From positions 9,268,001 through 9,332,000 of the forward strand of contig NZ_CP054916.1 in NCBI RefSeq assembly GCF_013364155.1: a stretch of 64,000 nucleotides of DNA. The letters run 5' to 3'. Both the position numbers and the translations under genes were made by a program. The notes below the pieces were generated by a model. It was not told where the DNA came from, did no database searches, and saw only the letters and a program-made list of their open reading frames with translations. Within the stretch, counting starts at the first letter, position 1. The number at the start of each line of letters is the position of its first letter. Source of the stretch: Streptomyces sp. NA02950 (GTDB lineage: Bacteria > Actinomycetota > Actinomycetes > Streptomycetales > Streptomycetaceae). This document shows, one piece after another, positions 8,028 to 32,140 of this stretch.

Positions 8028-9233
8028 ATGTCTCTCCCGAGCGAATCGACTGTGGACTCCGAGACGGCTGAGGCCCGGGCAGGCGACACTCGGGAAGTGT
8101 CGTTGTTCTGGGAGCGGCATCTGCCGGACGAGGTGGTCTTCCGCCCTGAGGAAGGAACGGTTCGTGCCTCGTCACCGGACGCTTGGCTGACCGTTCCGCT
8201 CCCCGCCCAGTGCGCCTCGGAGCGAGCGGACACCGCCTCTGCGGGTGTGCCGGTCCTGACGCTGTGGGTTTCCGAGGTATGGGAGGTGTACGGTGAGGCG
8301 GCGGCCGGTGTTCGTCTTCTGCCCCTCCCTCTGATCGCCTCAAGAAGGTTCCGCGCAGTCGGACCGTACGGAACGACTGTGGAGTTCGCCGAAATGAGGC
8401 CCGAGACCTTGGTCTCGCGTCTTCTCGCCAAGACCGACACAGTCACTCCCTGGGCGATCCGGGCCGCGGTGACGCCGCGACTGCCGGACCTGCTGGCGGA
8501 CCGGTCGCTGTCCGCGGCGGACGCGGCGGACCGCACGGGGACCGAACCGGATGCGCTTCACCGTCTGCTGCCGTTGCTGGCCAGGCACGGGATCCTCACC
8601 GAGGCGGCCGACGGCAGGTTCCGCGGCACCGCACTCTCCGGTGCGCTACGGGAAGACCATGCTCGGGCCTGGTCTCGTCCCTGGACCCCGGCAGAGCTCA
8701 GGCGCGTATCGACGAGCTCTCGCGGGGCGTCATCCACTCGATGCGCACGGGAAAGCCTGTCTACGAGCACCTTTTCGGGCTCCCGCTGTGGGAGGACTTT
8801 GCCGCGGAGCCCGGGCTGTCGGAGTCCTTCCAGGAGTGGATGAGCCGCAAGACGACGCTGCTGGCCCCCTCCTTCACCGATGGCTACGACTGGAGCGGGG
8901 TACGGCATGTGATGGACCTGGGCGGCGGATGTGGCACCCTGTTGGCCGCACTCCTGGACAGCGCTCCTTTCCTGCGGGGCACCTTGCTGGAACTGCCCGA
9001 GACGGCGGTCGGCGCGTTCGGTGAACTTTCGGCCACCAGCGCGGCGAACCGGATCTCCGTGGTCGGCGGCAGCTTCTTCGATCCCCTTCCGACGGGCGCC
9101 GAACTCATGCTCTTCGGCGGCTAGGAAGGTTGTCTGACGGAGTACGACCAACTGGCCGCAGCAGCGGGGCTGGCCATCACCTCCGTCTCACCTGCGTCGT
9201 CCGGTGTCTTTCATCATGGAGTGTCGAGAGGCG
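8028..9233 (+). pseudogene. Decayed SAM-dependent O-methyltransferase
   Basis: The 5' part (ATG 8028) encodes an N-terminal winged-helix dimerisation domain of a class I O-methyltransferase, through LLPLLARHGILTEAADGRF. Near 8672 the frame shifts by one, apparently a missing G in a G-run. The family sequence then continues from QARIDELSRGVIHSM at about 8703 and includes the SAM-binding motif VMDLGGGCGTLLAALL. The frame stops at 9122 after GAELMLFGG. In the same frame after the stop come EYDQLAAAAGLAITSVSPASSG, a typical methyltransferase C-terminus. So roughly 70 residues are missing internally and the gene is dead. Confidence 0.8.
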
Positions 9234-9390: not shown

Positions 9391-9936
9391 GTGCTGCGGT
9401 GGATCGACACCGATCCAGAGCCGTTCGACCTCAGCACCTACCTCGACCTGCTGCTCGAGCTCGTCCTGCGAGTCTGGCCTCTCCCTGCAAGGGCCGATGA
9501 CCGTCGACCGGGGCCACGCTCCAGGCCACGGCGGGGGAGACCGGCCCGGATGGCAGCCAACCTCAAACCCCGAAACCGAGAGAGGTTGCCGACCGGAGCG
9601 CTGTCCGGCGGCACTTCGGTAGGCCGCAGCGTGCGAGGCGGACCGCCGGGGCATCCGGATCCCCTCTCGTCCGCCATGCCTCCGTCGTGCGATTCCCTAA
9701 TCTTCTGGCGACTGCCGGGCTGGCTGACACTGCTTGGGAGGCTCCTCTGCCGCGCACAAGGCCGAGATCCTCGCCCTGCGCCACGGATGTGGTGATCGGG
9801 AGCAAGTGGGTTACACCTCTTGGCGCATTCTCCTCTTGCTCCTGCTCGGAGTCCCGGTCTCGGAAATCACTGAGGGTTTTCCGACAGCAGCCTCTGTATC
9901 TACCGATCTTCATACAATCTCCAGTTGGGATACGCG
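9391..9936 (+). other. Remnant-rich spacer with a transposase N-terminal trace
   Basis: No intact gene is present. Around 9705-9800 two frames together read GWLTLLGRLL and KAEILALRHG, the start typical of a group of actinobacterial IS3/IS481-like integrase-type transposases (WLALLGRS then DAEILVLRHEVAVLRRQ). The rest of that protein is missing. The promoter of the regulator at 9937 must lie in the last part of this stretch. Confidence 0.4.
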
Positions 9937-12900
9937 ATGAAAGATGATGTACGTTCCCCTGGGCTTCGATTCGAAATCCTTGGCCCCTTGAGTGTGAGTT
10001 CCGATGTAACGAAGGTGGACCTCGGTGCGCCGAGGCAGCGCGCTCTGCTCGCCCTGCTGTTAATCCACGTGGGCAGCGTGGTATCTCTGCCCGTGATCAT
10101 CAACGCGATCTGGGGATCCAACCCACCGAGCAAGGTCACGGGGACGCTGCAGGCTTACGTTTCCCGGCTGAGGAAGCTGCTCCACGAGCATGATCGCTCC
10201 ATCCGACTCGTCCACCATCTCCAGGGATATCTGCTCGAAGCCGATGCGCAGCTGGTCGACGCCGCGGTCTTCGAGGCCAAGGCCAGGGACTGCCGGGAAT
10301 TGCTTAAGTCCGGAGATCTCGAAGTCGCTCGCTCGACAGCTTGGTCCGCGCTGGAGCTGTGGAAGGGCACTCCCATGGGCGAGTTGTACGGTTATGACTT
10401 CGCGGTGGCGGAAGCGGACCGCCTGGAACATCTCCGATTACGGGTACTGGAAGTGTGGGCCCAGGCGTGTCTCGAACTGCACGCCTATGGGGAAGTGACT
10501 CTCCGGCTCGGCGAGGAGCTTTGCCGCAACCCCGGATTGGAGCGGTTGGGTGGCCAGTTGATGGTGGCTCAGTACCACTCCGGTCAGTCGGCGGACGCTC
10601 TCTTGACGTATGAACGGATGCGCAATGCAGTGGCGGAGGACCTGGGGGCCGATCTCAGCCGGGAATTGCAAGCTCTGCACGGGAAGATTTTGCGTCAGGA
10701 ACTAGAGGCATCACCGGTCTCGGAGTCGGCAGGCCGGACCGCGCCCGCGCCGGGATCCGCCCCGGTACCTGCGCCGCCGGAATCGAAGAAACCGGCGCCG
10801 TCCGTGTCCCCACAGCCGGGTGACCGGCTCATCGGCCGTCAAGCGGAGATGCAGCGGCTGGAGAGACTGTTGGCGGGCGCCCGAAGCGGTCGTGGCCATC
10901 TACTGCTGGTCTGCGGCGAGCAGGGAATCGGAAAGACGCGGCTGTTGCAGCACTCGGAGCGTTGTCTTGCCGCCAGCGGGTTCCGGACGGTGCGCTCACA
11001 GTGCATCGGGGCCCTGTCGGCTCCGGGCTACTGGACCTGGGACCACGTCGTGAGACAGCTGGAGGTGGCGAGCGACGCGAGCATGGCTGTCGCCGCGGAC
11101 CTCGTCGCCCATGAGGACTGGCTGCCCGAGCAGCACCTCACCCACCAGATGCGGATCGTCCAGGCCGTGCTCTCCGCCGCGGAGCGGACACCGGCAGTGC
11201 TTCTGCTAGAGGACCTACATCTCGCCCCCGTGCCCGCACTGGAAGTGCTCCAACTGCTGGTCAAGCAGATCATCCGTGCCCGGGTCATGATATTGGCCAC
11301 CCTGCGCGACCACGAACTGGCGAAGAACCCAGCGGTACGACGCGCCGTGGGCCGTATCCTTCAGGAAAGCAGTAGCAGCCTCCTCCGACTGGAGGGGCTC
11401 GCCGAAGAAGAGAGTCACGAGTTGATCGCCTCGGCCTCGGGAGCGGCGCCCTCGCCCAACGAAGCCCTGCGGCTCCAGCGCGCCTCCGGCGGCAACCCAT
11501 TCCTCCTTCTCAGCATGGTCTCCGCGCAGACAACCGGAAAGCGGCTGCAGAGGTCATCTGTCCCCCTCGAACTACGCGAGATGCTGCATGGGCGACTGAG
11601 CGAATGCTCCCCGGGCACGCTCGACGTGCTCACCCTCTGCGCCGTGATAGGCATGAGCGTGCACCGTCCCCTGCTCGCGGACCTCCTGTCCACTCTTGAA
11701 CTGCCGCACACACTGATCGACGACGCGGTACAGACCGGCCTGCTGCGCCACGACCGGACCGCCGACGGCCGGCTCTCCTTCGTGCATGGGCTGACGCGTG
11801 ACTTCCTGCTCGACGATACGCAGCCGGTCACCCTCGCCCGGTGGCACCAGCACGTTGCCACCACCCTGGCCCTGCGGTTCCAGCCGGGTGACGATGCCGC
11901 TGAGATCCGCCGCCACTGCCTGGCAGCCGCCCGGCTCCTGGGTGCCCGCATGGGCGTGCGTCCTTTACTGACTCTGGCCGACCGGGAGCAGGCCCGCTTC
12001 GCCCATGCGGCCGCACTGCACTGGCTGGAAGGCGCGGCGTCGGTCGTTGCGGCGCTGCCCGGGGACCAGCAGACCTCTGCCCTGAAACTGCAGCTGCGCA
12101 AGCGGATGATACGGCTGCATGCCCTGATCGAGGGCTACGGCTCGGACCGGGTCGAGAAGATCCTCTGGCACGCTCAACAGCTGGAGCGCACCTTTGATCG
12201 CACACAGCCCACCGGACTGCTGCACATCCAGGCGATGAGCGCGATCACTGCGGGTCAGTACTCGCAGGCAGCGGAAATCGCCGTCCTGCTCTACGAGTTG
12301 GCCGACCACGGCGGCGGCCGGGCGGCCCGATCGGCGGCCTGTTACGTGGAGGGGGTCACCCTGTATGTGAGCGGCCGTCCGGACGAGGCGCTCGGCGCGC
12401 TGACACAGGGTGTCGAAATCATCGACTCCCTCTTGGACGCGTCCTGCGCGCCAACGCGGCTGAGCGCGCTGCTGAGGGACCAGCGCATTGACTACCGGGC
12501 CTACCTGGCGCTCAGCCACTGTCTCCGCGGCGATGAGATCCAGACCCAGCGCTACCGGTCGCAACTCCTTCACCTCACCCGGTCCGACCGCTATATCCGG
12601 CCCTGGGACCGGGCTTTCGCCCGGTATGTGGATGCCCTCATCGCCATCACCGAGGACGACGTACAGCGTGCCTGGCTGGCAGGCAGGGCGGGCCGGGACC
12701 TCGCCGTCCGCTGCCGGCTCCCTTTCTGGCACCGCATGCTCGCCGTCCCGCTCGGGTGGGCCGAGGTGCATCAGGGGATGCACGAGAGGGGGCTGGCCCG
12801 GATGCGGAAGGCGCTGCACGACTCGGCCCGGCACCGGACCCTGCTGCGCCGCACCCTTCACCTCGGGTTGCTCGCCGACGCTCTGCACCGTATGGGTGCC

Positions 12901-13131
12901 CACGACGAGGCACGGCGTACGATCACCTCCGCCGCTGAGGAAATCGAGGAGCGGGACGAATACTTCTGTTTCCTTCCCCAGTGGCCGTTCGCCCGACTGC
13001 TCGGTGAGTCCGACACCGGCAGCACGGCAGCGCACCAAGTCGATCACGAACGTCGTTTGATAGGTATGAGTAGGGTCGGGGACGGGCGCGGTGGCTTCTG
13101 CTCCGTTTCCAGCCCCCGCCGCTTCAAGTGA
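9937..13131 (+). CDS. AfsR/SARP-type pathway regulator, Cvm7-like
   Basis: A 1064-residue regulator. It has an OmpR-like DNA-binding domain (about 10-95), a bacterial transcriptional activation domain (about 100-245) and a Pro/Ala-rich linker (about 246-290). An AAA-type ATPase follows (Walker A CGEQGIGKT near 326, Walker B VLLLEDLH near 421), then a long helical TPR-like C-terminus. I start at ATG 9937; an in-frame TTG at 9925 is less likely. Three in-frame TTA codons (10060, 10438, 11965) imply dependence on the bldA tRNA. In S. clavuligerus the clavam cluster carries a regulator of this kind called cvm7, so control of the cluster downstream is the natural inference. The last 20 or so residues overlap transposase debris and may not be original. 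Confidence 0.9.
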   Translation: MKDDVRSPGLRFEILGPLSVSSDVTKVDLGAPRQRALLALLLIHVGSVVSLPVIINAIWGSNPPSKVTGTLQAYVSRLRKLLHEHDRSIRLVHHLQGYLLEADAQLVDAAVFEAKARDCRELLKSGDLEVARSTAWSALELWKGTPMGELYGYDFAVAEADRLEHLRLRVLEVWAQACLELHAYGEVTLRLGEELCRNPGLERLGGQLMVAQYHSGQSADALLTYERMRNAVAEDLGADLSRELQALHGKILRQELEASPVSESAGRTAPAPGSAPVPAPPESKKPAPSVSPQPGDRLIGRQAEMQRLERLLAGARSGRGHLLLVCGEQGIGKTRLLQHSERCLAASGFRTVRSQCIGALSAPGYWTWDHVVRQLEVASDASMAVAADLVAHEDWLPEQHLTHQMRIVQAVLSAAERTPAVLLLEDLHLAPVPALEVLQLLVKQIIRARVMILATLRDHELAKNPAVRRAVGRILQESSSSLLRLEGLAEEESHELIASASGAAPSPNEALRLQRASGGNPFLLLSMVSAQTTGKRLQRSSVPLELREMLHGRLSECSPGTLDVLTLCAVIGMSVHRPLLADLLSTLELPHTLIDDAVQTGLLRHDRTADGRLSFVHGLTRDFLLDDTQPVTLARWHQHVATTLALRFQPGDDAAEIRRHCLAAARLLGARMGVRPLLTLADREQARFAHAAALHWLEGAASVVAALPGDQQTSALKLQLRKRMIRLHALIEGYGSDRVEKILWHAQQLERTFDRTQPTGLLHIQAMSAITAGQYSQAAEIAVLLYELADHGGGRAARSAACYVEGVTLYVSGRPDEALGALTQGVEIIDSLLDASCAPTRLSALLRDQRIDYRAYLALSHCLRGDEIQTQRYRSQLLHLTRSDRYIRPWDRAFARYVDALIAITEDDVQRAWLAGRAGRDLAVRCRLPFWHRMLAVPLGWAEVHQGMHERGLARMRKALHDSARHRTLLRRTLHLGLLADALHRMGAHDEARRTITSAAEEIEERDEYFCFLPQWPFARLLGESDTGSTAAHQVDHERRLIGMSRVGDGRGGFCSVSSPRRFK

Positions 13132-13480
13132 AGTGGGCCGCCGACGAGGTGCCGGTGGCGCGGGAGCCAGGGGCCGCGGGCCTGCAGGCGGGGGTGCATC
13201 CGGTCCCGGGCGAGGACGTCGGCCCAGCCGTAGCGGATGGTGTCGCAGGTAGTGGCGGCGTCGGGCGTATGCCCCGTTTCAGGCTTGGCGAAGGTGAGGA
13301 CACCGCCATGCTTGCGGGGCTGCCCGCCGCGCGGGGTGGAGCGGCGCCGTCCGGCGTCGCGGAGCATGACCCCGGTCCGAGCGCAAGCCGGCCGACCAGC
13401 CCAACGGGCAGGCCGATGCCGCTCCGCTGTCCGGCAGGCCCGCGGACCGCTGGTGGAAGCAAGGTGTGCATCGGCAAACC
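13044..13480 (-). pseudogene. Transposase remnant
   Basis: On the minus strand the frames read GGQPRKHGGVLTFAKPET, then DTIRYGWADVLARDRMHPRL. This is the pattern of a family of actinobacterial transposases (GRPRKHG...F..PETW, then YG.A.A.AWDR.HP.L). Upstream, SDRVMLRDAG continues it in a shifted frame. Both ends are missing. It separates the regulator from cvm3 and overlaps the regulator's last codons. Confidence 0.65.
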
Positions 13481-13499
13481 ACTGGACCGGCGGCAGAGG

Positions 13500-14066
13500 T
13501 CAGACCGGCCGGGCGGGTTGTCCGGACCGGGCAGCGTCGCTCCCCTCAGCGAAGTGCCCGTAGTCACCGCGCAGAAACACCAGGGGTGGACCGGGCCGCT
13601 GGACCCCGAGGTCGTGGACCGCGCCGGTGACGAACCAGTGGTCGCCCGCCGCCACCTCGCCCGCCACTTCGCAGTCGAACCAGACGAGCGCGTCGAGCAG
13701 GACGGGGGAGCCAGTGGCGGTCTCCTGATGGGGCACCTCCCAGCGGTGGGGATCTATGGTGGCGAAGCTGCGGCAGACCTGCTCCTGGTCCGCTCCCAGC
13801 ACATTGACGCAGAAACGGCCGGCCGCCCGGATTCGCGGCCAGGTGGTCGAGGACTGCGAGGGAAGGAAGCCCACCAGCGCAGGGTGCAGCGACACCGAGG
13901 TGAAGGTGCCCACCACCATCGCGGGTGGGGGCTGCTCCGGTGCCGGACGCGGCCCGGTGACGAGGACCACCCCGGTGGGGTAATGGCCGGCCACCCAGCG
14001 CAACCGCCCGGCAGCCACGGACTCCTGGCCGCACTGCACGGAACTGCCCTGCACGGAACGGGACAT
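13500..14066 (-). CDS. cvm3: Flavin reductase-like protein, Cvm3-like
   Basis: A 188-residue protein of the HpaC/flavin reductase domain family: VAGHYPTGVVLVTG, then MVVGTFTSVSLHPALVGFLP, and FCVNVLGADQEQVCRSFA. The ATG at 14066 has AAAGGAG at ideal distance. It would supply reduced FMN to a partner, most likely the luciferase-type monooxygenase Cvm5 encoded in the same cluster. S. clavuligerus has the same cvm3 flavin reductase next to cvm2 and cvm1. The frame is also open upstream into the broken gene at 14148-15175. Confidence 0.85.
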   Translation of the reverse strand: MSRSVQGSSVQCGQESVAAGRLRWVAGHYPTGVVLVTGPRPAPEQPPPAMVVGTFTSVSLHPALVGFLPSQSSTTWPRIRAAGRFCVNVLGADQEQVCRSFATIDPHRWEVPHQETATGSPVLLDALVWFDCEVAGEVAAGDHWFVTGAVHDLGVQRPGPPLVFLRGDYGHFAEGSDAARSGQPARPV

Positions 14067-14147
14067 ACGGTCTCCTTTGCTCCGGTAAGGAGAGGTGCCG
14101 TAGGACTTGGCCGCGGCACCTTCCCGACCCGCTGAGCCGACGGCCAA

Positions 14148-15175
14148 CGGGCGGGCTGCTCGGCGTAAGCCACGCCCGAGGAAGGCCCGGACCAGCTCGG
14201 CGACGTCCGTGGCGACCTTGCCGGAGCCGCGTCGCGCCGCAGTGGTCGGGCCAGCAACTCGGCCACCTGCGCCATGTCGTTCTCCTTCATGCCCAGCTGG
14301 TCAGTCCCTGGGTGCCGAGGCTGCAGGCCCGGCCACGTCGAAACCGCGCCCGGCCGGTTCGCCGGCCAGGCGGCGGGCGTGGCGATGACCTGGTGCGCGT
14401 AATCAACCTGGTGCGGCAGCAACTCCTCCAGCGTGATCGCCAGGCTGCCGACCGTCGCGGAGTGGGAGCTCGACGCCGGGAAGGGAATCCGTGCCGCCAT
14501 CTTCTCCGCGCGGGAATTCCTCTTGGTGACCAGGAGTCCGTTCTGCGTGCCGGGCAGCGTCTTATGCGTACTGTCGGAGACGCCGTCGAGGACCAGGGTC
14601 TGGGGGCTGCGGGGCTTGCGGACAGCAGACCGAGCAGGTGCGAGGCGTCCAGACAGATGAGCGCGTCGGGCACGGCGGCCCGTAGCGCCCGGGAGTCGGG
14701 GAAGCGCAGCGCCGTGGAGGCGTCCAGGTAAACCACGTCGACCGAGTGCTCCGCGATCCGCGCCGCGAGTGCCGTACGCCGGATCTCCAAGCGTTGCCGA
14801 GTGGAAGGGGCGGAAGTCCACCTGTAGCCGAAGCCCTGGCAGGTGGTGACGGCAGCGTAGTGGCCGCCGTCGGCGGGGGCTGGCACCATCACCCGGCCGC
14901 CGGGTGGGCCCGCCGCAGTGAGCACGGTGTGCATGGAGTGCAGCCCGGACAGGAACCGCACGAAGGCGTGCCGGGCCCCGTAGAACTCCTTGATGAGGTC
15001 CACGCAGTGGCCGTAGACGTCCTTGAGCCACGTGACGTCGCCGTAGACCGCCACCGGCGTCTCCGAGTACGGATAGTGGTTGACCGCGTCGGTGGCGAGG
15101 TCCGTGGCGAGAGTCGGTTCTCAACCGGAAGAGGTTGAGGCTGGGCCTGCGCTGCGAGGCGGTCGGCACGTTCAT
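14148..15175 (-). pseudogene. Frameshifted SHMT/threonine-transaldolase-like PLP enzyme (orfA-like)
   Basis: The ATG at 15175 has a good AAGGAG site, but the protein is spread over three frames. The N-terminus reads MNVPTASQRRPSLNLFRLR. After a shift near 15110 it continues DAVNHYPYSETPVAVYGDV through LICLDASHLLGLL. Near 14615, at a run of five C, it returns to the first frame with the PLP-lysine motif STHKTLPGTQNGLLVTKR. Near 14225 a third shift leads to DVAELVRAFLGRGLRRAARP. The family is serine hydroxymethyltransferase-like fold-type I, which includes transaldolases. S. clavuligerus alanylclavam orfA is annotated as a hydroxymethyltransferase. Either the gene is dead or the sequence has indel errors. 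Confidence 0.75.
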
Positions 15176-15220
15176 CAGTGCTCCTTGGCTGGGGAAAACG
15201 GAGGGGAACCGGGGAGCGCG

Positions 15221-15676
15221 TCACAACCACGGGTAGCGGGCAACGTCCTTGCCCGCGTAGTCGGGGTCCAGGTAGATGAACGCCCGCTGGATGAGGAAGT
15301 CCCGTACCTCGAAGACGCCGCACCAGCGCCCGGCGCCCCACTCGGGCACACCCACCCGCCAGGGACCGTCGCGGTGCTCGCCGTGCGTGGTTCCCTCGAC
15401 GGCGAGCAGATCGGTCCCGGTGGTGATCCAGTTGAAGGACCAGAAGTGGTGCGTGACCGATGTGACTGTGCTCCCGAGACCGCTGAACATCCGGGCGATC
15501 TCGGACGTGCCGTGGGCCAGTCCCCATTTCGGGAAGAAGAAGTCGGCGTCCTCGGCGAAGAAGTCGAGCACGGAACTCCCATGCCTGCCGATCCCACCGT
15601 TGTCGAAAGCCTTGAGATATGCGGTGATGACGGCCTTGCGCTGCTCGTCCGTCATGACAGCGGGTGCCATGGGCAT
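15221..15676 (-). CDS. cvm2: SnoaL-like protein, Cvm2-like
   Basis: A 151-residue SnoaL/NTF2-fold protein (AVITAYLKAFDNGG near the start, then HGTSEIARMFSGL, and a C-terminal half rich in Trp). Members bind small hydrophobic substrates in a conical pocket and act as cyclases or isomerases. I chose ATG 15676 because GGAGG lies about seven bases upstream. It lies in the same minus-strand series as cvm1 and cvm3, as in S. clavuligerus, where these are 5S-clavam genes. The exact reaction is not known to me. Confidence 0.85.
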   Translation of the reverse strand: MPMAPAVMTDEQRKAVITAYLKAFDNGGIGRHGSSVLDFFAEDADFFFPKWGLAHGTSEIARMFSGLGSTVTSVTHHFWSFNWITTGTDLLAVEGTTHGEHRDGPWRVGVPEWGAGRWCGVFEVRDFLIQRAFIYLDPDYAGKDVARYPWL

Positions 15677-15830
15677 GAACGACCTCCGGATGTGCCGGGA
15701 ATCTGCGGGAGGGGGCGCCGCACTCACGGGACGGCGTCGTCGTTGCGGCCGCCCGGCGGACATGCTCCACCGTCGCAGGGCGGTCTTGCCGCGGGCTTGA
15801 CGTCCCGCTGCGGCCCGGCCTTGCAAGCAG

Positions 15831-16826
15831 TCAGTTGCCGGTCATGGCGAGCATCGCGGGCGCATAACGCTCCCCGTGGACCGGGACGGCGATCGCCTCC
15901 GCCACCGCCGCCCGGGCGGCCTGGTCCAGCTGCACCGAGGCCGCGGCAAGGTTCTCGGTCAGGTGGCCCGGGTCGCTGGTGCCCGGGATGGGGACGACGT
16001 CCGGGCCGCGGTGGTGGAGCCAAGCCAGGGCGAGCTGGGCCAGCGTCAGGCCGAGGCCGTCGGCGACCGGGCGCAGCCGGTCCAGCAGCGACTGATTGTG
16101 TGCCAGGCCGACGGCGCTGAACCTCGGCTGACTGCGGCGGAAGTCCTCGGCAGCCAGGTCGTCGATGGTGTGGATGCCTCCGGTCAGGAAGCCGCGGCCC
16201 AGCGGGGCGTACGCCACGATGCCGATGCCCAGCGCGCGGCTGGCAGGCGCCACCTCGGCCTCGATGTCCCGCGACCACAGGCTCCACTCGCTCTGCACCG
16301 CGGTGACCGGGTGCACCGCGTCAGCCCGGCGCAGCGTGCCCGCGGAGGGCTCGGACAGCCCGAAGTACCGGACCTTGCCCTCGCGCACCAGCTCCGCCAC
16401 CGCGCCCGCAGTCTCCTCCACCGGGACCGCCGGGTCGATCCAGTGTTGGTAGTACAGGTCGATGTGGTCCACGCCAAGGCGGAGCAGTGAGCGTTCACAG
16501 GCCCCGCGCACATAGGACGGCTTGCCGCACAGCCCCTGGAACCCGCCGTCGGCGGAGCGCACCATGCCGAACTTGGTGGCGATCACGACCTCGTCGCGGC
16601 GTCCCGCTACGGCCTGGCCGAGCAGTTTCTCGCCCGCGCCCAGGCCCTGGACATCGGCGGTGTCCAGCAAGGTGACCCCGGCGTCCAGTGCGGCGCGGAT
16701 CGTGGCGAGCGACCGGTCCGGCTCCGCACGGCCGTAGAAGTCCGTGGTCGGCAGGCAGCCCAGCCCTTGGGCACTGACGTGCAGATCGCGCAGTGCGCGG
16801 ACCGGGGGACGCATGGACGCGGGCAT
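15831..16826 (-). CDS. cvm1: Aldo/keto reductase, Cvm1-like, lacking the catalytic Tyr
   Basis: A 331-residue (alpha/beta)8 aldo/keto reductase: GLGCLPTTDFYG, LLDTADVQG, VVIATKFG, DLYYQHWID and GIVAYAPLGRGFLTGG in family order. Of the Asp-Tyr-Lys-His tetrad, Asp (DTAD), Lys (ATKFG) and His (YYQHW) are visible, but the Tyr position is Gln (DTADVQG where DTADVYG is usual). The ATG at 16826 follows GGAGGTTCCGCC. It is divergent from ceaS. In S. clavuligerus cvm1 is a 5S-clavam gene, so a reductive step on an aldehyde or ketone was expected; the missing Tyr makes that uncertain. Confidence 0.88.
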   Translation of the reverse strand: MPASMRPPVRALRDLHVSAQGLGCLPTTDFYGRAEPDRSLATIRAALDAGVTLLDTADVQGLGAGEKLLGQAVAGRRDEVVIATKFGMVRSADGGFQGLCGKPSYVRGACERSLLRLGVDHIDLYYQHWIDPAVPVEETAGAVAELVREGKVRYFGLSEPSAGTLRRADAVHPVTAVQSEWSLWSRDIEAEVAPASRALGIGIVAYAPLGRGFLTGGIHTIDDLAAEDFRRSQPRFSAVGLAHNQSLLDRLRPVADGLGLTLAQLALAWLHHRGPDVVPIPGTSDPGHLTENLAAASVQLDQAARAAVAEAIAVPVHGERYAPAMLAMTGN

Positions 16827-18901
<2,075 letters not shown>

Positions 18902-18902
18902 C

Positions 18903-20426
18903 ATGGCCCGGACGCTGCCTTCCGCCACCGGCTTCCTGGCCGCAGTCCAGCAGGACGGTGGCCAGGTCCCGCAGCCGGCCTTCGCTTCGCTCGGCTCCCG
19001 CACCGAGGAACGCGAGGAACGGCACGGCCACACGCTGCACACCAGGTTGCTGCATGCCGGGGCGCCGGAAGCCGCCCGGGCATGCGGACCGGGGGCAGCG
19101 GTGGTGTTCGCCGGAGAGCTTTACAACCAGGCCGAACTGCGGTCGCTGCTGCCGCGCGGCACCGACCCCGCCGGTGACGCCCAGCTCGTCCTCGCGCTCT
19201 TCGACACCTATGACCTGCACGCGTTCCGGCTGCTCAACGGGCGCTTCGCAGCGCTGGTGCACGGCGAGGGGCGGATCGTACTCGCCACCGACCACGTGGG
19301 CTCGGTGCCGCTGTACCTGACGGCCGCGCTGGGCCGGGTGCTGGCCGCCACCGAGGCCAAGGCCCTGCGCACCGCCCCCATGGGGCTGCCGCTGCCTGCC
19401 GCCCGACCGATCCGCCGGCTTCCCGGGGTCCACCAGGTTCCGGCCGGAACGGTGCTGGAAGTAGTACTCGGCACGGGAACGTGCACCGCCCACCGGACCT
19501 GGGCGCCGCCGCACTCCCGCCGGATCACGGCGGAGGACGAGGCGGTGGCGGCCGTCCGCCGGGCCCTGGAGCATGCGGTGCGGGTGCGTCTGGGCCCAGA
19601 GGCACCTCTGGTGGTGCTCTCCGGCGGCATCGACTCCGCCAGCGTCGCGGCGCTGGCGGACCGGGCGGCCGGCCCGATCGACACCATCTCGATGGGCACG
19701 GACGACGCCGATGAGTTCTCCCAGGCGCGGATCGTCACCGAACACCTCGGCACCACGCACCGGGAACTCATCATCCCCACCGCCGACCTGCTGCGCCGCC
19801 TCCCGCACACGGTCTGGGCGGCGGAGTCCCTGGACCCCGACATCATCGAGTACCTGCTCCCGCTGACGGCCCTGTACCTGCGCCTGGACGGCACTGGGCG
19901 GCGCATCCTCACCGGCTACGGCGCCGACATCCCCCTGGGCGGTATGCACCGCGAGGACCGGCTGCCCGCCCTGGACACCGCCCTCGCCCACGACATGGAG
20001 ACCTTCGACGGCCTCAACGAGATGTCTCCGGTGCTCTCCGGCATTGGCGGCCACTGGTCCACCCACCCTTACTGGGACCGCGATGTGCTGGACCTGCTGG
20101 TCTCCCTGGAGGCAGGGATGAAGCACCGCTACGGGCAGGACAAGTGGGTGCTGCGGGCCGCCATGGGCGATGTGCTGCCGCAGGAGACCGTGCTCCGCCC
20201 CAAGCTCGGGGTGCACGAGGGCTCCGGCACCACCTCGTCGTTCAGCCGGCTGCTCACCGACGCCGGGGTCCCCGACGGGCGGGTGCACCACGCCAAGCGC
20301 CTGGTCGTCCAGGAGTTGTTCGACCAGGTGGTGGTGGCCGGGCGGCACCCCGACGAAGTGGCCACCGATGATGCGGTGCAGCTGGTCGTCGACCGGTTGG
20401 AGCGCCATGCACAGCCCATCCCGTGA
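18903..20426 (+). CDS. bls: Beta-lactam synthetase
   Basis: Closes the beta-lactam ring of N2-(2-carboxyethyl)arginine to deoxyguanidinoproclavaminate using ATP. The 507-residue protein resembles asparagine synthetase B. The N-terminal Ntn-like domain lacks the catalytic Cys, as in known BLS enzymes. The C-terminal domain has the PP-loop VVLSGGIDSASVAAL, and LRPKLGVHEGSG carries the lysine known to be essential in BLS. It starts one base after ceaS stops and is close to pah, so the three are clearly co-translated. Confidence 0.95.
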   Translation: MARTLPSATGFLAAVQQDGGQVPQPAFASLGSRTEEREERHGHTLHTRLLHAGAPEAARACGPGAAVVFAGELYNQAELRSLLPRGTDPAGDAQLVLALFDTYDLHAFRLLNGRFAALVHGEGRIVLATDHVGSVPLYLTAALGRVLAATEAKALRTAPMGLPLPAARPIRRLPGVHQVPAGTVLEVVLGTGTCTAHRTWAPPHSRRITAEDEAVAAVRRALEHAVRVRLGPEAPLVVLSGGIDSASVAALADRAAGPIDTISMGTDDADEFSQARIVTEHLGTTHRELIIPTADLLRRLPHTVWAAESLDPDIIEYLLPLTALYLRLDGTGRRILTGYGADIPLGGMHREDRLPALDTALAHDMETFDGLNEMSPVLSGIGGHWSTHPYWDRDVLDLLVSLEAGMKHRYGQDKWVLRAAMGDVLPQETVLRPKLGVHEGSGTTSSFSRLLTDAGVPDGRVHHAKRLVVQELFDQVVVAGRHPDEVATDDAVQLVVDRLERHAQPIP

Positions 20427-20467
20427 CGGACCCGTCACTCAGCGGACACACGAGGAGCAACCAGGGC

Positions 20468-22401
<1,934 letters not shown>

Positions 22402-22554
22402 CCCGCAGCAACGCGCCGGACCCGCGCGCGAAGGACTGGAAATCCCCCGCCGCGAGGCTCCGTTGCGCAACGCCGGCGCCGGAGTGCACGAGCATGGTAT
22501 GGATCAATGGAACGGCGCTTCGCCGCACCCTCGCCACCCAGGAGACGAACAGGC

Positions 22555-23736
22555 ATGACGGACAGCGAAACCTACGAACCGCGGGGGTTCTCGGTGCACA
22601 CCGCGCCGGTGGGCCTCCGGGACGACGGACGGGACGACTTCACCGTCCTGCTCTCCACCGCACCGGCCACGGTGAGCGCGGTCTTCACCCGCTCCCGTTT
22701 CGCGGGGCCCAGCGTGCGGCTCAGCCGTGCCGCCGCCGCCGACCACCGTGCCCGAGGTGTGGTGGTGCTCGCCCGCAACGCCAACGTCGCCACCGGTGCC
22801 GAGGGCGAGCGCAACGCCCGCGAGGTGCGCGCCTTGGTGGCCCGGGCGTCCGGGCTATCGGACGAGGAGCTGCTGATCGCCTCCACCGGCGTCATCGGCC
22901 ACCAGTACCCGATGCCGGCCCTCCGCGACCACCTGAAGACGCTGGCCGTACCGTTTCCCGAGGGTGGTTTCGACCGGGCAGCCCGGGCCATCATGACCAC
23001 TGACACCCGGCCCAAGCATGCTTTCCGGCGGATCGGCAACGCCACCTTGGTCGGGATCGCCAAGGGGGTCGGGATGATGGAGCCCGACATGGCCACGCTG
23101 CTCACCTTCTTCGCTACCGACGCCCGGCTGGACCCGGCGGAACAGGACCGCGTATTCCGCCGGGTGATGGACCGTACGTTCAACGCCGTCAGCATCGACA
23201 CCGACACGTCCACCAGCGACAGCGCGGCGCTGTTCGCCAACGGCCTGGCGGGCGAGGTGGACCCGGTTGCCTTCGAGGAGGCCCTGTACGAGGTGGCGCT
23301 GACGCTGGTGAAGGGCATCGCCCGGGACGGCGAGGGCGCGGGCAAGCTGATCGAGGTCCGGGTCCACGGGGCGCGGGACGACGCGCAGGCCAAACGGGTC
23401 GGCAAGGCCGTAGTCAACTCCCCGCTGGTGAAGACCGCGGTGCACGGCGGCGACCCCAACTGGGGCCGGGTCGCCATGGCGATCGGCAAGTGCTCCGGCG
23501 ACACCGACATCGAGCAGGAGAAGGTGGTCATCCGCTTCGGCGAGGTAGCCGTCTACCCACCTGCCCGGCAGGGTGCGCGGAGCGAGGAGGGGGTGCGGGC
23601 CGCCGTCGCCACCGAACTGGCCGGCAGCGAGGTGGTCATCGGCATCGACCTCGGCATCGCGGACGGTGCGTTCACCGTGTACGGCTGCGACCTGACCGAG
23701 GGCTACGTGCGGCTCAACGCGGACTACTCGACCTGA
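22555..23736 (+). CDS. oat: Ornithine acetyltransferase, clavam-type OAT
   Basis: An ArgJ-family Ntn hydrolase, 393 residues from ATG 22555 (GGAGA upstream), the size of OAT2 in clavulanate clusters. The self-cleavage nucleophile Thr181 lies in PDMATLLTFF. In S. clavuligerus OAT2 transfers acetyl between glutamate and ornithine and supports arginine supply. A primary-metabolism argJ cannot be excluded from sequence alone, but it is the fifth gene of the ceaS operon. The 3' end overlaps cvm4 by 13 bases, tail to tail. Confidence 0.92.
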   Translation: MTDSETYEPRGFSVHTAPVGLRDDGRDDFTVLLSTAPATVSAVFTRSRFAGPSVRLSRAAAADHRARGVVVLARNANVATGAEGERNAREVRALVARASGLSDEELLIASTGVIGHQYPMPALRDHLKTLAVPFPEGGFDRAARAIMTTDTRPKHAFRRIGNATLVGIAKGVGMMEPDMATLLTFFATDARLDPAEQDRVFRRVMDRTFNAVSIDTDTSTSDSAALFANGLAGEVDPVAFEEALYEVALTLVKGIARDGEGAGKLIEVRVHGARDDAQAKRVGKAVVNSPLVKTAVHGGDPNWGRVAMAIGKCSGDTDIEQEKVVIRFGEVAVYPPARQGARSEEGVRAAVATELAGSEVVIGIDLGIADGAFTVYGCDLTEGYVRLNADYST

Positions 23737-24731
23737 TCGGCCCGCACCGTCGCAGGCCAGCGGGCCAGGAGCCGACGCAGTTCGCCACCGACGAACTCCC
23801 GGTCGGCGGCGTCCGCGCCGGCTCCCGCGAGGTGCCCCCACACGCCCGGGACCACCTTCAGCGCAGCGCGGGGGAGCACACCCGCGACCCGCTCCTCGTC
23901 CGCGACGGCGAAGCACTGGTCCAAGGCGCCGGGCAGCAGCACCGCCTCGGCCGTGACCGAGGCCAGTGCGGCGTCCGCGCTGCCGCCGAACCCGGGGGTC
24001 GCGCCCACATCGGCGCTCTCCCAGGTGCGCACCATGGCCAGCAGGTCCGCGGTGGCCGGGCCGGCCACGAAGAACTCCTCCCAGAAGTTGGTGAGGTACT
24101 CCTCCCTGGTGGCGAACCCCAGCTCCTGGTACGCCCGTTGGGCCCAGAAGGGGTGCGAGGCCCCCCATCCGGCGAAGACCCGCCCGGCGGCCCGTCGTCC
24201 CCGCTCCGCGCCGCCGTCGGAGGCCAGCGCGGCGGCCAGACCGGCCAGGAAGACCTGGTTGTGCTCGCTGGTCACCGGGGAGCCGCAGATCGGCGCGATC
24301 CGGCGGACTATCCGCGGGTGGGACACCGCCCACTGGTAGGTGTGTGCTGCGCCCATCGACCAGCCGGTGACCAGGGCCAGCTCCCGGACGCCCAACTGCT
24401 CGGTCAGCAGCCGGTGCTGCGCGGCGACGTTGTCCTGCGGGGTGATCAGCGGGAAGTCCGCCCCCGAAGGATGGTTGCTGGGCGAGCTGGAGACCCCGTT
24501 GCCGAACAGCCCCACGGTGATGACGCAGTACCGGCTGGTGTCCAGCGGTCGGCCCTTGCCGATCAGCCAGTCGTAGCCGGTGTGGTCACCGCCGAAGAAC
24601 GACGGGCACAGCACGGCGTTGGCGCCGTCCGCGTCCAGCGTCCCGTGCACGGCGTAGCCGATCCTGGCGTCGGTGAGGAGCTCGCCGCTGAGCAGCGGCA
24701 GCGCGTCGAGGTCGAAAACGCGGTGGTCCAC
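23724..24731 (-). CDS. cvm4: MetX-type acyltransferase/hydrolase, Cvm4-like
   Basis: An alpha/beta-hydrolase of the homoserine/deacetylcephalosporin C acetyltransferase family, 335 residues. The nucleophile elbow is GWSMG, the acid is probably in LPGALDQCF and the base in GVWGHLAG. I chose the GTG at 24731 because AAGGAGG lies six bases before it; the open frame extends 34 codons further upstream. S. clavuligerus cvm4 is described as an acetyltransferase-like 5S-clavam gene, so acyl transfer to a clavam hydroxyl is possible (inference). Confidence 0.85.
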   Translation of the reverse strand: MDHRVFDLDALPLLSGELLTDARIGYAVHGTLDADGANAVLCPSFFGGDHTGYDWLIGKGRPLDTSRYCVITVGLFGNGVSSSPSNHPSGADFPLITPQDNVAAQHRLLTEQLGVRELALVTGWSMGAAHTYQWAVSHPRIVRRIAPICGSPVTSEHNQVFLAGLAAALASDGGAERGRRAAGRVFAGWGASHPFWAQRAYQELGFATREEYLTNFWEEFFVAGPATADLLAMVRTWESADVGATPGFGGSADAALASVTAEAVLLPGALDQCFAVADEERVAGVLPRAALKVVPGVWGHLAGAGADAADREFVGGELRRLLARWPATVRADQVE

Positions 24732-24863
24732 CGCGGCCCTCCTTGATGGTGTGGCTGTCCGGTGTGGCCGGCTGCCGTGGAGGAGCCGCCCGTCCTCGTA
24801 CCAGCGGCCCCTCGGTACCGGCTCCGTACACATGCCTCCGTGAGCGGATGAACCGAGCTTCCC

Positions 24864-26048
24864 TCAGAGCCAGTTGGGGGCGATCTCGGTGGACCACAGC
24901 TCCAGGCTGCGCATCTGCACGTCGTGCGGGATCAGCCCGGAGTACTGGCACTGCAGCAGGTACTCCGGGTCGTGCTGCTCCACCAGCTTCTCGATCTTGC
25001 GGTTGATGTCGTCCGGGGTGCCGACCCACTCCAGGCCCCGGTCGACCAGCGTCCCGTAGTCCGAACCGATCGGCCCGGATTCCCCGACGTTCCGCAGCGC
25101 CTCGGTGAAGCCCATGGGGCCGAACCAGTTCTCGAAGATGAAACCGCCGCCGCGGGCCGCCCAGTGGTGGGCCTCATCGGCGTCCCGGGACACCAAGACA
25201 TCCTTCATCACACCCACCCGCTCGCCGCGCCGCAGCGTGCCGTGCCCGGCCGCCTCGGCCTCCTCCTGGTAGAGGTCCATCAGGCGGCGGACGACTCGGT
25301 CGTCGGTGTTCATCACGATCGGCACCACGCCCTCCCGGGCACAAAACCGGAAGGTGTCCTCGCTGAAGCTGAACGGCTGAAACACCGGAGGGTGCGGCCG
25401 CTGGTACGGCTTGGGGGCGATGCCCACCTCCTGGACCGTGCCGTTGTCGTCCAGCCCGCGGCCGTACCGGCGCACCGCCTCATAGGGGAACTCCAGGTCC
25501 TTCACCGGGATCGTCCACCGGGCGCCGGAGTGCGAGAAGGTCTCGGTCGTCCACGCCTTCTTGACGATCTCCCAGTGCTCCTCGAAGAGCGCGCGATTGC
25601 GTCGGTCGTTCTCACCGGCGTCGGAGAGCGTGCCGCCCACGCCGTACGTCTGGCCCATGACCTCGGCCCAGCGCTTCTGGAAACCCCGCGCGATGCCGAC
25701 GAAGGCGCGGCCGCGGGTCATGTGGTCGAGCATCGCCAGGTCCTCGGCGAGCCGCAGCGGATTGTGGAAGGGCAGGACGTTGGCCATCTGACCGACTCGG
25801 ATGTGCTGGGTCTGCATGGCCAGATACAGACCCAGCATGATCGGATTGTTGGAGACCTCGAAGCCCTCGACGTGGAAGTGGTGCTCGGTGAAGGACAGAC
25901 CCCAGTAGCCTAGTTCGTCGGCCGCCTGCGCCTGACGGGTGAGCTGCCGGAGCATGTTCTGGTAGTTCTGCGGGTTGACGCCCGACATGCCGCGCAGGAT
26001 CTGGGCATGGCTGCCGACCGTGGGCAGATAGAAGAGGATGGACTTCAC
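24864..26048 (-). CDS. cvm5: Luciferase-like flavin monooxygenase, Cvm5-like
   Basis: A 394-residue bacterial luciferase-family monooxygenase: FTEHHFHVEGFEVSNNPIML, RVGQMANVLPFHNPLRLAED, GRAFVGIARGF and a C-terminal GTPDDINRKIEKLVEQ helix. It would use FMNH2 delivered by the Cvm3 flavin reductase. The family can carry out Baeyer-Villiger-type oxygenations, a plausible way to shorten the clavam side chain (inference). The start is GTG 26048, with AAAGG and AGGA upstream. That start lies back-to-back with the IS110 transposase start at 26050, so the native promoter was probably displaced. Confidence 0.9.
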   Translation of the reverse strand: MKSILFYLPTVGSHAQILRGMSGVNPQNYQNMLRQLTRQAQAADELGYWGLSFTEHHFHVEGFEVSNNPIMLGLYLAMQTQHIRVGQMANVLPFHNPLRLAEDLAMLDHMTRGRAFVGIARGFQKRWAEVMGQTYGVGGTLSDAGENDRRNRALFEEHWEIVKKAWTTETFSHSGARWTIPVKDLEFPYEAVRRYGRGLDDNGTVQEVGIAPKPYQRPHPPVFQPFSFSEDTFRFCAREGVVPIVMNTDDRVVRRLMDLYQEEAEAAGHGTLRRGERVGVMKDVLVSRDADEAHHWAARGGGFIFENWFGPMGFTEALRNVGESGPIGSDYGTLVDRGLEWVGTPDDINRKIEKLVEQHDPEYLLQCQYSGLIPHDVQMRSLELWSTEIAPNWL

Positions 26049-26049
26049 T

Positions 26050-26990
26050 GTGGTCCTGCCTTTCGAGATCTGGGCCGGAGTTGACATCGGCAAGGAACGC
26101 CACCACTGCGTGGTGATCAAGGCGGACGGTGAACGGCTGGCCCGCATCCGACGTGATATCGGCCTGCTGCGTCGCGGCGATGAGATCGCCGTCGACCTGC
26201 GCCCCCGGCGCCCGGACGTGGCCTTCGACCGCACCGTCAGATCAACCGTCTGCGTGCTCAGCTGCTGGGGGTCTTCTCCGCGTTGGAGCGGTCGCTGGAT
26301 CTGGTCAACAAGGGTCCGGTGATGCTGCTGACCGGCTACCAGATCCCGGCCGCGATCCGACGCGCAGGCGTGAAGCGGATCGAGACCTGGTTGAAGAACC
26401 GCAAGGTCCGCGGCGCCGCCGCGCTCTCGAAGCGGGCAGTGGAGGCCGTCCAGGCCCAGCACACCGCGCTTCCTGGCGAGAAGCCGGCCGCCGCCATGGT
26501 GGCTCGCCTCGCGAAGGGGGTGATGGCCCTCGATGAGGAGATCGCTGAACTCGACGCCACGATAGAGGCCATGTTTCACGAGCATCCGCACGCCGAGATG
26601 ATCCGCAGTCTGCCCGGCATGGGCCCCAGGCTCGGCGCTGGGTTCCTTGCCGCGACCGGCGGCGACGTGGACGCCTTCGGAAGCGCCGACCGCCTGGCCG
26701 GCTTCGCCGGCCTGGCCCACAGACCCCGCGACTCCGGCCGCGTCAGCGGCAACCTGCGCAGACCCAAGCGATACCACCGAGGACTGCTGCGGAGCATGTA
26801 CCTTTCGGCGTTGATCAGCATCACTGCATGCCCCGACTCCGAGGCGTGCTACCAGCGCAAGCGGAGCGAGGGCAAGGGACACAAGCAGGCCCTGCTCGCC
26901 CTTGCCCGGCGCCGGCTCAATGTCCTGTGGGCGATGATCCGTGACGGACAGTGCTACCAAGGTTCACCTCCCGTCACAGTGGCGGCTTGA
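26050..26990 (+). mobile_element. Decayed IS110-family element with broken transposase
   Basis: The transposase start is recognisable (IWAGVDIGKERHHCVVIKADG, with the first DEDD aspartate). It then jumps to ARIRRDIGLLRRGDEIAVDLR, so about 65 residues are deleted internally. A one-base shift near 26238 follows, after which the C-terminal part reads on in frame: LDLVNKGPVMLLTGYQ, SLPGMGPRLGAGFLAATGG, FAGLAHRPRDSG and VLWAMIRDGQCYQ. The element is inactive in cis. It lies between cvm5 and cvm6 and fills most of their shared upstream region. Confidence 0.9.
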
Positions 26991-27227
26991 CATCACGATT
27001 GGGAAGTCCTTTCGGTTCGCAGCGCCGACGCGTAACTGTGCGCCGAAGGCGTCTCGACCGTCTCACCGCACTCTTGACATCCATTTGATGGGGCGTCTGT
27101 CGGGCGGCCCCGTCCAACCGGTACCTGCCGGGCCGGAGTCGGCCCGGGTGCAGCGGAACATCCAGCGGGCAACAAGCCTTCGCAGAGATCCTCGGAACGC
27201 ACCATCACCGTTCCTAAGGAGCCCGCC
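26991..27227 (+). promoter_or_regulatory. IS right flank and cvm6 upstream region
   Basis: No gene. TTGACA hexamers occur at 26987 and 27073, but neither has a good -10 partner at 17 bases. AAGGAG at 27215 is the ribosome binding site of cvm6. Confidence 0.4.
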
Positions 27228-28592
27228 TTGACCTCAGCACCCTCCACCCCGCCGGGTGCGCCCGGCACCGAGCTCGCCGCCGCGGACCGTGCCACGCTCA
27301 TCCATCCCACGCTGGCCGCGCACCGCACGGACCGGACCGTGCTGGTTTCCGGTTCCGGCAGCCGGGTCCGGGACGCCCGCGGTCGGGAGTACCTGGACGC
27401 GTCAGCGGCGCTGAGCGTGATCCAAGTGGGCCACGGGCGCCAGGAGCTCGCGCAGGCAGCAGCGGAGCAGATGACCCGTCTCGGCTACTTCCACACCTGG
27501 GGCACCGTCAGTAACGACCGCGCGGTGGAGCTGGCCGCCCGGCTGGTCCGACTGAGCCCGGAGCCGCTGTGCCGGGTGTACTTCACCAGTGGCGGCGCCG
27601 AGGGCAACGAGATCGCGCTGCGGATGGCCCGTCTCTACCACCACCGGCGCGGCGAGCCGCAGCGGACCTGGATCCTCTCCCGTCAGACGGCTTACCACGG
27701 CATCGGCTACGGCAGCGGCGGAGTCTCCGGATTCCCGGTCTACCACGAGGGGTTCGGGCCCTCGCTGCCGGACGTCCACTTCCTGACCCCACCGCACCCG
27801 TACCGCCGGGAGCTGTTCGCCGGCGCCGACGTGACCGACTTCTGTCTGGCCGAACTGCGCGAGACCATCGAACGGATCGGACCGGAGCGGATCGCCGCGA
27901 TGATCGGCGAACCGGCCATGGCTGTTGCCGGCGCGGTCGTTCCGCCCGCCGACTACTGGCCGCGGGTAGCCGACCTGCTGCGCTCCTACGGCGTCCTGCT
28001 GATCTCCGACGAGGTGATCACGGCCTACGGGCGCACCGGGCACTGGTTCGCCGCGGAGCACTTCGGCGTGGTTCCCGACATCATGGTCACCGCCAAGGGC
28101 ATCACCTCCGGTTACGTGCCGCACGGCGCCGTCCTCACGACTGAGGAGGTCGCGGCCGAGGTGACCGGCGACCACGGCTTTCCCATCGGCTACACCTACA
28201 CCGGGCATCCGACGGCCTGTGCTGTGGCGCTGGCCAATCTCGACATCATCGATCGCGAGGGGCTGGTGGCCAACGCCACCGCGATCGGCGACTACCTGGG
28301 GTCGCGGCTGGCGGAGCTGGCCGGGCTGCCGGTCGTCGGGGAGGTCCGGCAGCTCGGCCTGATGCTGGCCGTGGAGCTGGTGACCGACCAGCAGAGCCGG
28401 CGACTGCTGACGGGCGGCACCGTCGCGCTGGCGGACGCGTTGCAGGAGCAGGCCGGGATCCTGCTGCGCACCACCCCGTACGCACTCCTGATCAATCCGC
28501 CGCTGGTCTTCACCCGCGAGGACGCGGACGAACTCGTGGACGGGCTCCGTTCCGTGCTCAGCCGCACCGGCCCGGACGGGCAGGTGCACTGA
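27228..28592 (+). CDS. cvm6: Class III PLP aminotransferase, Cvm6-like
   Basis: A 454-residue omega-type aminotransferase. PLP-binding features are YFTSGGAEGNEIALRMARL, the ISDEVITAYGRTG aspartate, and the Schiff-base Lys290 in TAKGITSGYVPHG. The start is TTG 27228, chosen because AAGGAG sits seven bases upstream and the N-terminal length fits. Cvm6 homologues are known from S. clavuligerus, where they are tied to 5S-clavam formation, probably removing or exchanging the clavaminate amino group. It is the rightmost recognisable clavam gene here. Confidence 0.92.
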   Translation: MTSAPSTPPGAPGTELAAADRATLIHPTLAAHRTDRTVLVSGSGSRVRDARGREYLDASAALSVIQVGHGRQELAQAAAEQMTRLGYFHTWGTVSNDRAVELAARLVRLSPEPLCRVYFTSGGAEGNEIALRMARLYHHRRGEPQRTWILSRQTAYHGIGYGSGGVSGFPVYHEGFGPSLPDVHFLTPPHPYRRELFAGADVTDFCLAELRETIERIGPERIAAMIGEPAMAVAGAVVPPADYWPRVADLLRSYGVLLISDEVITAYGRTGHWFAAEHFGVVPDIMVTAKGITSGYVPHGAVLTTEEVAAEVTGDHGFPIGYTYTGHPTACAVALANLDIIDREGLVANATAIGDYLGSRLAELAGLPVVGEVRQLGLMLAVELVTDQQSRRLLTGGTVALADALQEQAGILLRTTPYALLINPPLVFTREDADELVDGLRSVLSRTGPDGQVH

Positions 28593-32113: not shown

Positions 32114-32140
32114 CCGCTGCGCATCACCTGCTCGCGCCCT

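Follow-up and report, generated by a model that had tools for sequence, protein, structure and literature searches.

The window analysed here, a 64,000-nucleotide stretch of Streptomyces sp. NA02950 (9.268-9.332 Mb of its 9.62-Mb contig; genome size 9.77 Mb), carries at positions 9925-28592 a clavam biosynthetic cluster that is a nearly complete 5S-clavam locus; what is new about it is the lack of a working threonine transaldolase, of an amino-acid ligase and of an exporter. From left to right, the cluster consists of cvm7, cvm3, a broken transaldolase gene, cvm2, cvm1, the early genes ceaS-bls-pah-cas-oat, cvm4, cvm5, the remnant of an insertion sequence (IS) of the IS110 family and cvm6. In terms of nomenclature, the cvm names follow protein family and gene order as compared with Streptomyces clavuligerus, Cvm6 being the only one of these proteins compared with an S. 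clavuligerus sequence. The features are as follows:

9925..13131, + strand: cvm7-like regulator of the SARP (Streptomyces antibiotic regulatory protein) type, with BTAD and AAA domains (domain matches)
13500..14147, - strand: cvm3-like flavin reductase (flavin-reductase NCBIfam matches below cut-offs; 75-76% identical to L019/L020)
14150..15224, - strand: pseudogene resembling L-threonine transaldolases of the OrfA/KaTTA type (about nine insertions or deletions)
15221..15826, - strand: cvm2-like protein (without Pfam match; 83% identity to L019 across 151 amino acids)
15831..16826, - strand: cvm1-like aldo/keto reductase (family and order)
17186..18901, + strand: ceaS, N2-(2-carboxyethyl)arginine synthase (structure-chain match, residues)
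18903..20426, + strand: bls, beta-lactam synthetase (structure-chain match)
20423..21412, + strand: pah, proclavaminate amidinohydrolase (structure-chain match)
21427..22401, + strand: cas, clavaminate synthase (NF043003, 570.9 bits; equivalog cut-off 450)
22507..23736, + strand: oat, ornithine acetyltransferase of the ArgJ family (structure-chain match)
23724..24833, - strand: cvm4-like, MetX-related protein of the alpha/beta-hydrolase fold (domain match)
24864..26048, - strand: cvm5-like flavin monooxygenase of the luciferase family (92/94/89% identical in L019/L020/L036)
26064..27005 (ends approximate), + strand: decayed IS110 remnant in the divergent cvm5/cvm6 promoter region
27074..27089, + strand: direct repeat resembling a SARP box, TTGACATCCATTTGAT (pattern match, between the IS remnant and cvm6)
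27228..28592, + strand: cvm6-like class-III aminotransferase dependent on pyridoxal phosphate (family match, tree)

The identity of the five early genes is well supported, as their products match S. clavuligerus structure chains end to end or nearly so: CeaS matches 1upa (E 0), BLS 1jgt (E 3.6e-197), PAH 1gq6 (E 2.3e-172), CAS 1drt (E 8.7e-180) and OAT 1vz6 (E 1.9e-196). The original prediction, which was made from the letters of the window, had described a tight ceaS-bls-pah-cas-oat operon with every named residue intact; a direct reading finds E57 of CeaS, H144/E146/H279/R293 of CAS and T181 of OAT (1vz6 numbering) in place and intergenic gaps of 1, -4, 14 and 105 bp, and the cvm1-6-like genes and the Cvm7-like regulator are all present around the early genes, close to where it had put them. 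Its claim that one copy of each gene exists holds for cas and ceaS, the two genes followed genome-wide, for which no second copy is present (next best matches 34% and 31% identical, respectively). It missed the transaldolase pseudogene, the missing ligase and major facilitator superfamily (MFS) exporter, the IS110 remnant and the position of cvm7 at the other end of the cluster.

The genome contigs of GTDB were scanned with a CAS alignment, resulting in 63 loci that span up to 10 kb on each side of cas, so that the absence of a gene from a locus refers to this reach and not to the genome. The full window order from cvm3 to cvm6 recurs in three of the 63 loci, those of S. olivochromogenes A53 (L019), Streptomyces SID10853 (L020) and Kitasatospora aureofaciens (L036), and is followed up to the contig end, hence partially, in one further locus (Kitasatospora MBT63, L034). 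These valclavam-type clusters share with the window both the order cvm3-transaldolase-cvm2-cvm1-ceaS-bls-pah-cas-oat-cvm4-cvm5-cvm6 and its orientations, at 63-94% identity for the retained biosynthetic genes and 41-63% for cvm7; in comparison, the window has a broken transaldolase, an IS110 remnant between cvm5 and cvm6 and cvm7 on the left, and lacks the ligase and MFS genes found in L019 and L020. The four strains would be candidate valclavam producers. With three complete relatives, a partial one and a predicted valclavam cluster already in print, the one-piece layout is not unique, and its novelty is not supported. The clavam cluster of S. antibioticus Tu1718, which we take to be among the closest systems, was reportedly compared with the S. 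clavuligerus clavam cluster by Nobary and Jensen in 2012. According to published passages, some species produce 5S clavams only (PMC6856088), and S. antibioticus possesses a clavam cluster but none for clavulanate (PMC9146315).

One-piece clusters that are less closely related and differ in internal order occur in S. aurantiacus (L055 and G032, taken as one record on account of their identical proteins) and in two Saccharothrix (L060, L061), the latter without oat, cvm3 and cvm4 in reach. Matches to cvm5 at E 1e-100 occur in 4 of 392 genomes of the same genus, that of the window included. A strongly decayed sister cluster in another Streptomyces genome (G271; contig C1, about 256.6-270.2 kb, L117-L119) has a truncated ceaS and a transaldolase in two pieces; bls, pah, cas and oat have no match in it, which leaves it invisible to a CAS-only search. 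Two loci (L021, L024) represent another clavam type with transaldolase, ligase and MFS genes, a Cvm6-like protein only 34% identical and no cvm2, cvm3 or cvm5 in reach. One-piece layouts are spread over several parts of the tree with differing internal orders, and the BLS tree requires at least four changes of layout state (7 one-piece rows, 30 others, 6 scored unknown). The suggestion that the one-piece layout is ancestral is plausible, but the window itself represents a reduced version of it and not a pristine ancestral cluster.

One sign of this reduction is the transaldolase gene. The four close relatives (L019, L020, L034 and L036) carry between cvm2 and cvm3 an intact gene of 398-399 codons belonging to the serine hydroxymethyltransferase/threonine-transaldolase family; compared with these four orthologues, the window copy has accumulated about nine insertions or deletions, including deletions of 10 bp and about 140 bp. 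A sequencing error was considered as the cause and rejected, given the many separate lesions, one of them of about 140 bp, and the open frames of the neighbouring genes. Non-synonymous and synonymous changes (N/S) were counted over the codons aligned in both L019 and L020, the counts being rounded and summed by hand. In the longest surviving block of the transaldolase, N/S is 25/15 on the window branch and 1/6 on the L019 branch. In comparison, the 11 retained biosynthetic genes (cvm7 excluded) reach 188/331 on the window branch, a significant difference from the transaldolase (Fisher p 0.002) that persists when cvm7 is added (259/412, p 0.004), while the same genes behave alike on the two branches (188/331 in the window versus 123/238 in L019, p 0.52). 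Twelve genes have full open frames, with Ka/Ks of 0.16-0.42 against L019. The transaldolase is therefore a dead gene under relaxed constraint, and the other genes of the cluster are, as far as this test can tell, still in use. A transaldolase tree, the outgroups of which are only 33-35% identical, gave no resolution. In terms of function, KaTTA, probably a K. aureofaciens protein to judge by its name, is an active transaldolase that uses L-Thr and not Gly or Ser, and is assigned, along with OrfA-like proteins, to a predicted valclavam cluster, according to a passage of PMC10495429; OrfA of S. clavuligerus has been grouped with transaldolases (PMC5490192).

The second loss concerns the genes next to cvm6. 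In L019 and L020, cvm6 is followed by an ATP-grasp ligase gene (its amino-acid-ligase C-terminal domain is called in L020) and by an MFS pump gene; in L021 and L024 the two genes lie at other places in the cluster, L060 and L061 have the ligase, and L036 has the MFS gene only, at the end of the locus. Neither an amino-acid ligase nor an MFS exporter is matched in the window. The closest ligase in the genome is 51% identical and belongs to an unrelated gene group at 8.20 Mb, 1.1 Mb away; it was rejected as a displaced part of the cluster, its 20-kb surroundings matching, out of the query set, only the two ligase queries and cad (36%) at E 1e-8. This gene group (L129, G000:C1:8190001-8210000) includes the amino-acid ligase, a branched-chain aminotransferase, an acyl-CoA-dehydrogenase-like protein and FolD. 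The use of ligase and MFS genes as markers of the valclavam type is itself drawn from L019, L020, L021 and L024; measured against it, the window has neither an intact transaldolase nor a ligase and MFS gene in the cluster. As transaldolase and ligase together would make amino-acyl clavams such as valclavam, the strain is presumably no longer able to do so.

The third difference lies in the regulatory region. In six relatives (L019, L020, L036, L055, L060 and G271), the divergent cvm5 and cvm6 genes are separated by 191-279 bp; here the spacing is 1177 bp because an IS110 copy inserted on the side of the cvm5 ribosome-binding site. The element family has 24 matching pieces in the genome, the remnant included, and three fuller copies, about 250 bp longer, are 86% identical to the remnant across most of its length, which marks it as decayed. 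A pattern for a direct repeat similar to a SARP operator (TTGGCATCCGTTTGACG in L019) matches in L019, L020, G271 and the window, and a diverged form can be seen in L036; in the window, the repeat remains on the cvm6 side of the remnant and the pattern, which was chosen after looking at the sequences and carries no computed chance expectation, has no second match between 9.0 and 29.5 kb. Cvm7, being of the SARP type, is the natural candidate to bind this repeat; its gene lies at the left end in the window and downstream of cvm6 in L019, L020, L036 and G271. Despite the adjacent IS110 remnant, cvm5 shows, at 11/32, the lowest N/S of any retained gene, and its identity to the counterparts in L019, L020 and L036 is 89-94%; both figures speak for a gene that is still expressed.

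As the early genes are common to the 5S-clavam and clavulanate pathways, the window could in principle encode a clavulanic-acid-like (5R) cluster with its late genes elsewhere in the genome, a reading in favour of which the CeaS tree, too, can be cited, as it places the clavulanate clade within a set of clavam loci. In the clavulanic acid clusters (S. jumonjinensis L039; L026, L029, L038, L041 and L042), which share the ceaS-bls-pah-cas-oat core with the window, oppA1, claR, cad, cyp and Cpe lie within the one locus. None of five late-gene queries matches the window at E 1e-10, in line with the original prediction; no orthologues of cad, cyp, claR or oppA1 are found in the window, to which the search for the last three was confined. 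Across the whole genome (G000), the Cpe/ORF12 domain (PF18042) has no match, compared with one in the S. jumonjinensis control genome, and the best of 94 relatives of the clavaldehyde-dehydrogenase-like Cad of S. jumonjinensis is 48% identical, whereas identities of 76-86% are reached by six other loci of the clavulanate type (L050 has 65% and L049 35%). The window groups with L019 in the trees, and with L019 and L020 in those of BLS (100/99) and PAH (89/76), where it falls in a separate starred clade outside the clavulanate clade; in the CAS, CeaS, BLS and PAH trees alike, it stands apart from the six loci in which Cpe, cad, cyp, claR and oppA1 are all present. A placement inside the clavulanate clade, which would have spoken against the original prediction, is rejected by approximately unbiased (AU) tests, all of them run after the trees were seen, for CAS (p 0.00045) and CeaS (p 0.0198). 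Tree rows were the best tblastn stretches of at least 120 bits and at least 60% query coverage without a stop; the CAS tree used those with 53% identity or more, to which 7 named proteins were added; for the Cvm6 tree the threshold was 52% identity, with G032, L092 and the copy from L120 excluded and 19 named proteins added, and L055, being identical to G032, was omitted from the BLS and PAH trees. With a complete cvm1-cvm6 set present, Cpe/ORF12 absent genome-wide and the clavulanate clade rejected for CAS and CeaS, the cluster is of the 5S-clavam and not of the clavulanate type, as originally predicted, and a clavulanate cluster with distant late genes was rejected as scarcely credible.

Within the 5S-clavam type, the window is best read, with a probability of about 0.75, as a single-locus valclavam-type cluster that has been stripped of its amino-acid-attaching arm and is left with the making of simple 5S clavams. 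Several points weigh against this reading. The cluster is known from its genes alone and may be silent, and the reactions given for Cvm1-Cvm5 derive from homology. Of six transaldolase matches in the genome, four lie outside the cluster, the best of them 35% identical, which leaves a small chance of a supply in trans. The two Kitasatospora loci L034 and L036, in spite of sharing the gene order of the window, stand apart from the window, L019 and L020 in the CAS and BLS trees and group there with clavam loci in which no cvm5 is in reach. The IS110 remnant could have crippled cvm5 expression, and N/S is raised on the window branch relative to the L019 branch in oat (21/34 versus 2/16), cvm4 (18/22 versus 8/23) and cvm6 (34/52 versus 12/28), possibly an early decay elsewhere in the cluster. 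Taken to their end, the last two points, together with the broken transaldolase and the state of the G271 sister cluster, would make the locus a dying, silent relic that lost its transaldolase and export genes first, had cvm5 uncoupled by the IS110 element and yields no product. Such a fate is rather unlikely in view of the twelve full open frames with their low Ka/Ks, of the 11 genes without excess amino-acid changes relative to the branch of the intact L019 cluster, and of cvm5, in which N/S is lowest even though the adjoining IS has itself decayed. Conversely, Cvm1-Cvm6 and host enzymes might make an undescribed, decorated clavam by another route; the 51%-identical ligase elsewhere in the genome and a Cvm4 without an assigned reaction here, in a cluster for which no end product can be named, leave some room for it, but no additional biosynthetic gene is seen within the cluster and ten flanking open reading frames (ORFs) that were scanned include no clavam-type gene, which makes this outcome distinctly improbable.

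For the stripped 5S-clavam cluster, a pathway can be proposed. CeaS joins arginine and glyceraldehyde-3-phosphate, BLS forms the beta-lactam ring, and CAS and PAH carry the pathway via proclavaminate to (3S,5S)-clavaminate, while OAT supports the supply of ornithine and arginine. The assignment of the CeaS, BLS, PAH and CAS steps to the window proteins rests on their orthology to the characterised enzymes. Clavaminate would then be transaminated by Cvm6, an aminotransferase of the Cvm6P type being the putative first 5S-specific step (PMC7830376, in a passage). Oxidative trimming by Cvm5 with flavin from Cvm3, reduction by Cvm1 and the action of Cvm2 and Cvm4 would yield simple 5S clavams such as 2-hydroxymethylclavam or clavam-2-carboxylate. 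In the intact relatives, the transaldolase would couple the aldehyde of the clavam to a two-carbon unit from threonine, and some of these relatives would use the ATP-grasp ligase to attach another amino acid and the MFS pump to export the product; with the transaldolase reduced to a pseudogene, ligase and exporter missing from the window and the remainder apparently under purifying selection, the pathway would end here at the simple clavams. Cvm7 probably activates the cluster through the SARP box beside cvm6, from which the old IS110 remnant parts cvm5. The window would thus represent a natural knock-out of the transaldolase branch within an otherwise constrained single-locus clavam cluster and, having no second cas or ceaS and no clavulanate marker, a cleaner host than S. 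clavuligerus for working out the unassigned reactions of Cvm1-Cvm5.

The comparison with S. clavuligerus leads to an outcome more interesting than the locus itself. The chromosomal clavam genes of that species run cvm6-cvm5-cvm4-cas1-cvm1-cvm2-cvm3 (locus tags in a table of PMC3992018) and a second set lies on the plasmid pSCL4 (PMC6382702, in an excerpt). The chromosomal cluster has the cvm order of the window, with CAS1 84% and Cvm6 (taken as the chromosomal protein) 78% identical; unlike in the window, none of ceaS, bls, pah, oat and the transaldolase lies between its genes. The pSCL4-type locus L120 (plasmid pF1D18A) shares with the window type ceaS1, bls1, pah1, oat1, cvm6P, a cvm7-like regulator and the transaldolase OrfA, at 48-73% identity across ceaS, bls, pah, oat and cvm6, but it also carries orfB, orfC and orfD, and shows no match to cas or cvm1-cvm5 within the 33 kb examined. 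In the window, orfB, orfC and orfD have no match at E 1e-10 and orfA is the pseudogene, which sets it apart from the alanylclavam type. S. aurantiacus (G032) has the transaldolase, orfB, orfC, orfD, cas and cvm1-cvm7 in one place. These patterns suggest that S. clavuligerus owes its split set of clavam genes to two different one-piece clusters, each of which left a remnant that complements the other: the chromosomal part would derive from a window-type cluster minus its early genes and transaldolase, and the pSCL4 part (ceaS1, bls1, pah1, oat1, cvm6P, orfA-D) from an S. aurantiacus-type alanylclavam cluster minus cas and most cvm genes.

The trees bear on both halves of this proposal. On the plasmid side, CeaS1 and Bls1 of L120 join S. 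aurantiacus with starred support (97/91 and 100/98, BLS also with L054), Pah1 joins it with 93/84 in the PAH tree, and forcing CeaS1 to the window-type rows is rejected (AU p 4.7e-5). On the chromosomal side, where the evidence consists of the CAS1 and Cvm6 proteins, the non-plasmid S. clavuligerus Cvm6 (P0252, taken as chromosomal) joins the window type in a clade of 14 rows (100/99), and Cvm6P falls outside that clade with S. aurantiacus (88/73, not starred); Cvm6 and Cvm6P as sisters are rejected (AU p 1.3e-4), as is CAS1 with the S. aurantiacus type (AU p 2.7e-6), while CAS1 and the window-type rows as one clade give AU p 0.123. The weak points are the long branch of Cvm6P and the gene-order type, which does not form one clade in the CAS and BLS trees; for CeaS, where clavulanate loci fall among the clavam loci of the tree, a single clade of the window, L019, L020, L034 and L036 gives AU p 0.585. 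Since the gene-order type fails to emerge as a single clade from the CAS and early-gene trees, the odds for an origin from two parent clusters are put at about even. If true, each S. clavuligerus part supplies what the other lost, the paralogues are not simple duplicates made in that species, and the window shows one such cluster partway through its reduction. Their origin thereby becomes a testable statement on two separate parent clusters, which was not found in the abstract openings and passages that made up the literature searched; it bears on the proposal, cited in passages of PMC6856088 and PMC9146315, that a duplicated 5S-clavam cluster gave rise to the clavulanate genes.

Rfam (at the gathering threshold) and tRNA scans of the window returned nothing. 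To the left of cvm7, O-methyltransferase domains (a dimerisation domain and Methyltransf_2) are spread across two overlapping frames at 8028-9124 on the + strand, apparently a broken gene. To the right of the cluster, positions 32064-35329 encode a pyruvate-formate-lyase-like glycyl-radical enzyme and a radical-SAM protein, unexpected in an aerobic streptomycete, followed by an aldehyde/alcohol dehydrogenase at 36734-39862. Further on, three ORFs at 43955-47119 resemble, by eye, arginine deiminase, ornithine carbamoyltransferase and carbamate kinase, placing an arginine-deiminase-like group about 15 kb from the arginine-consuming clavam cluster.

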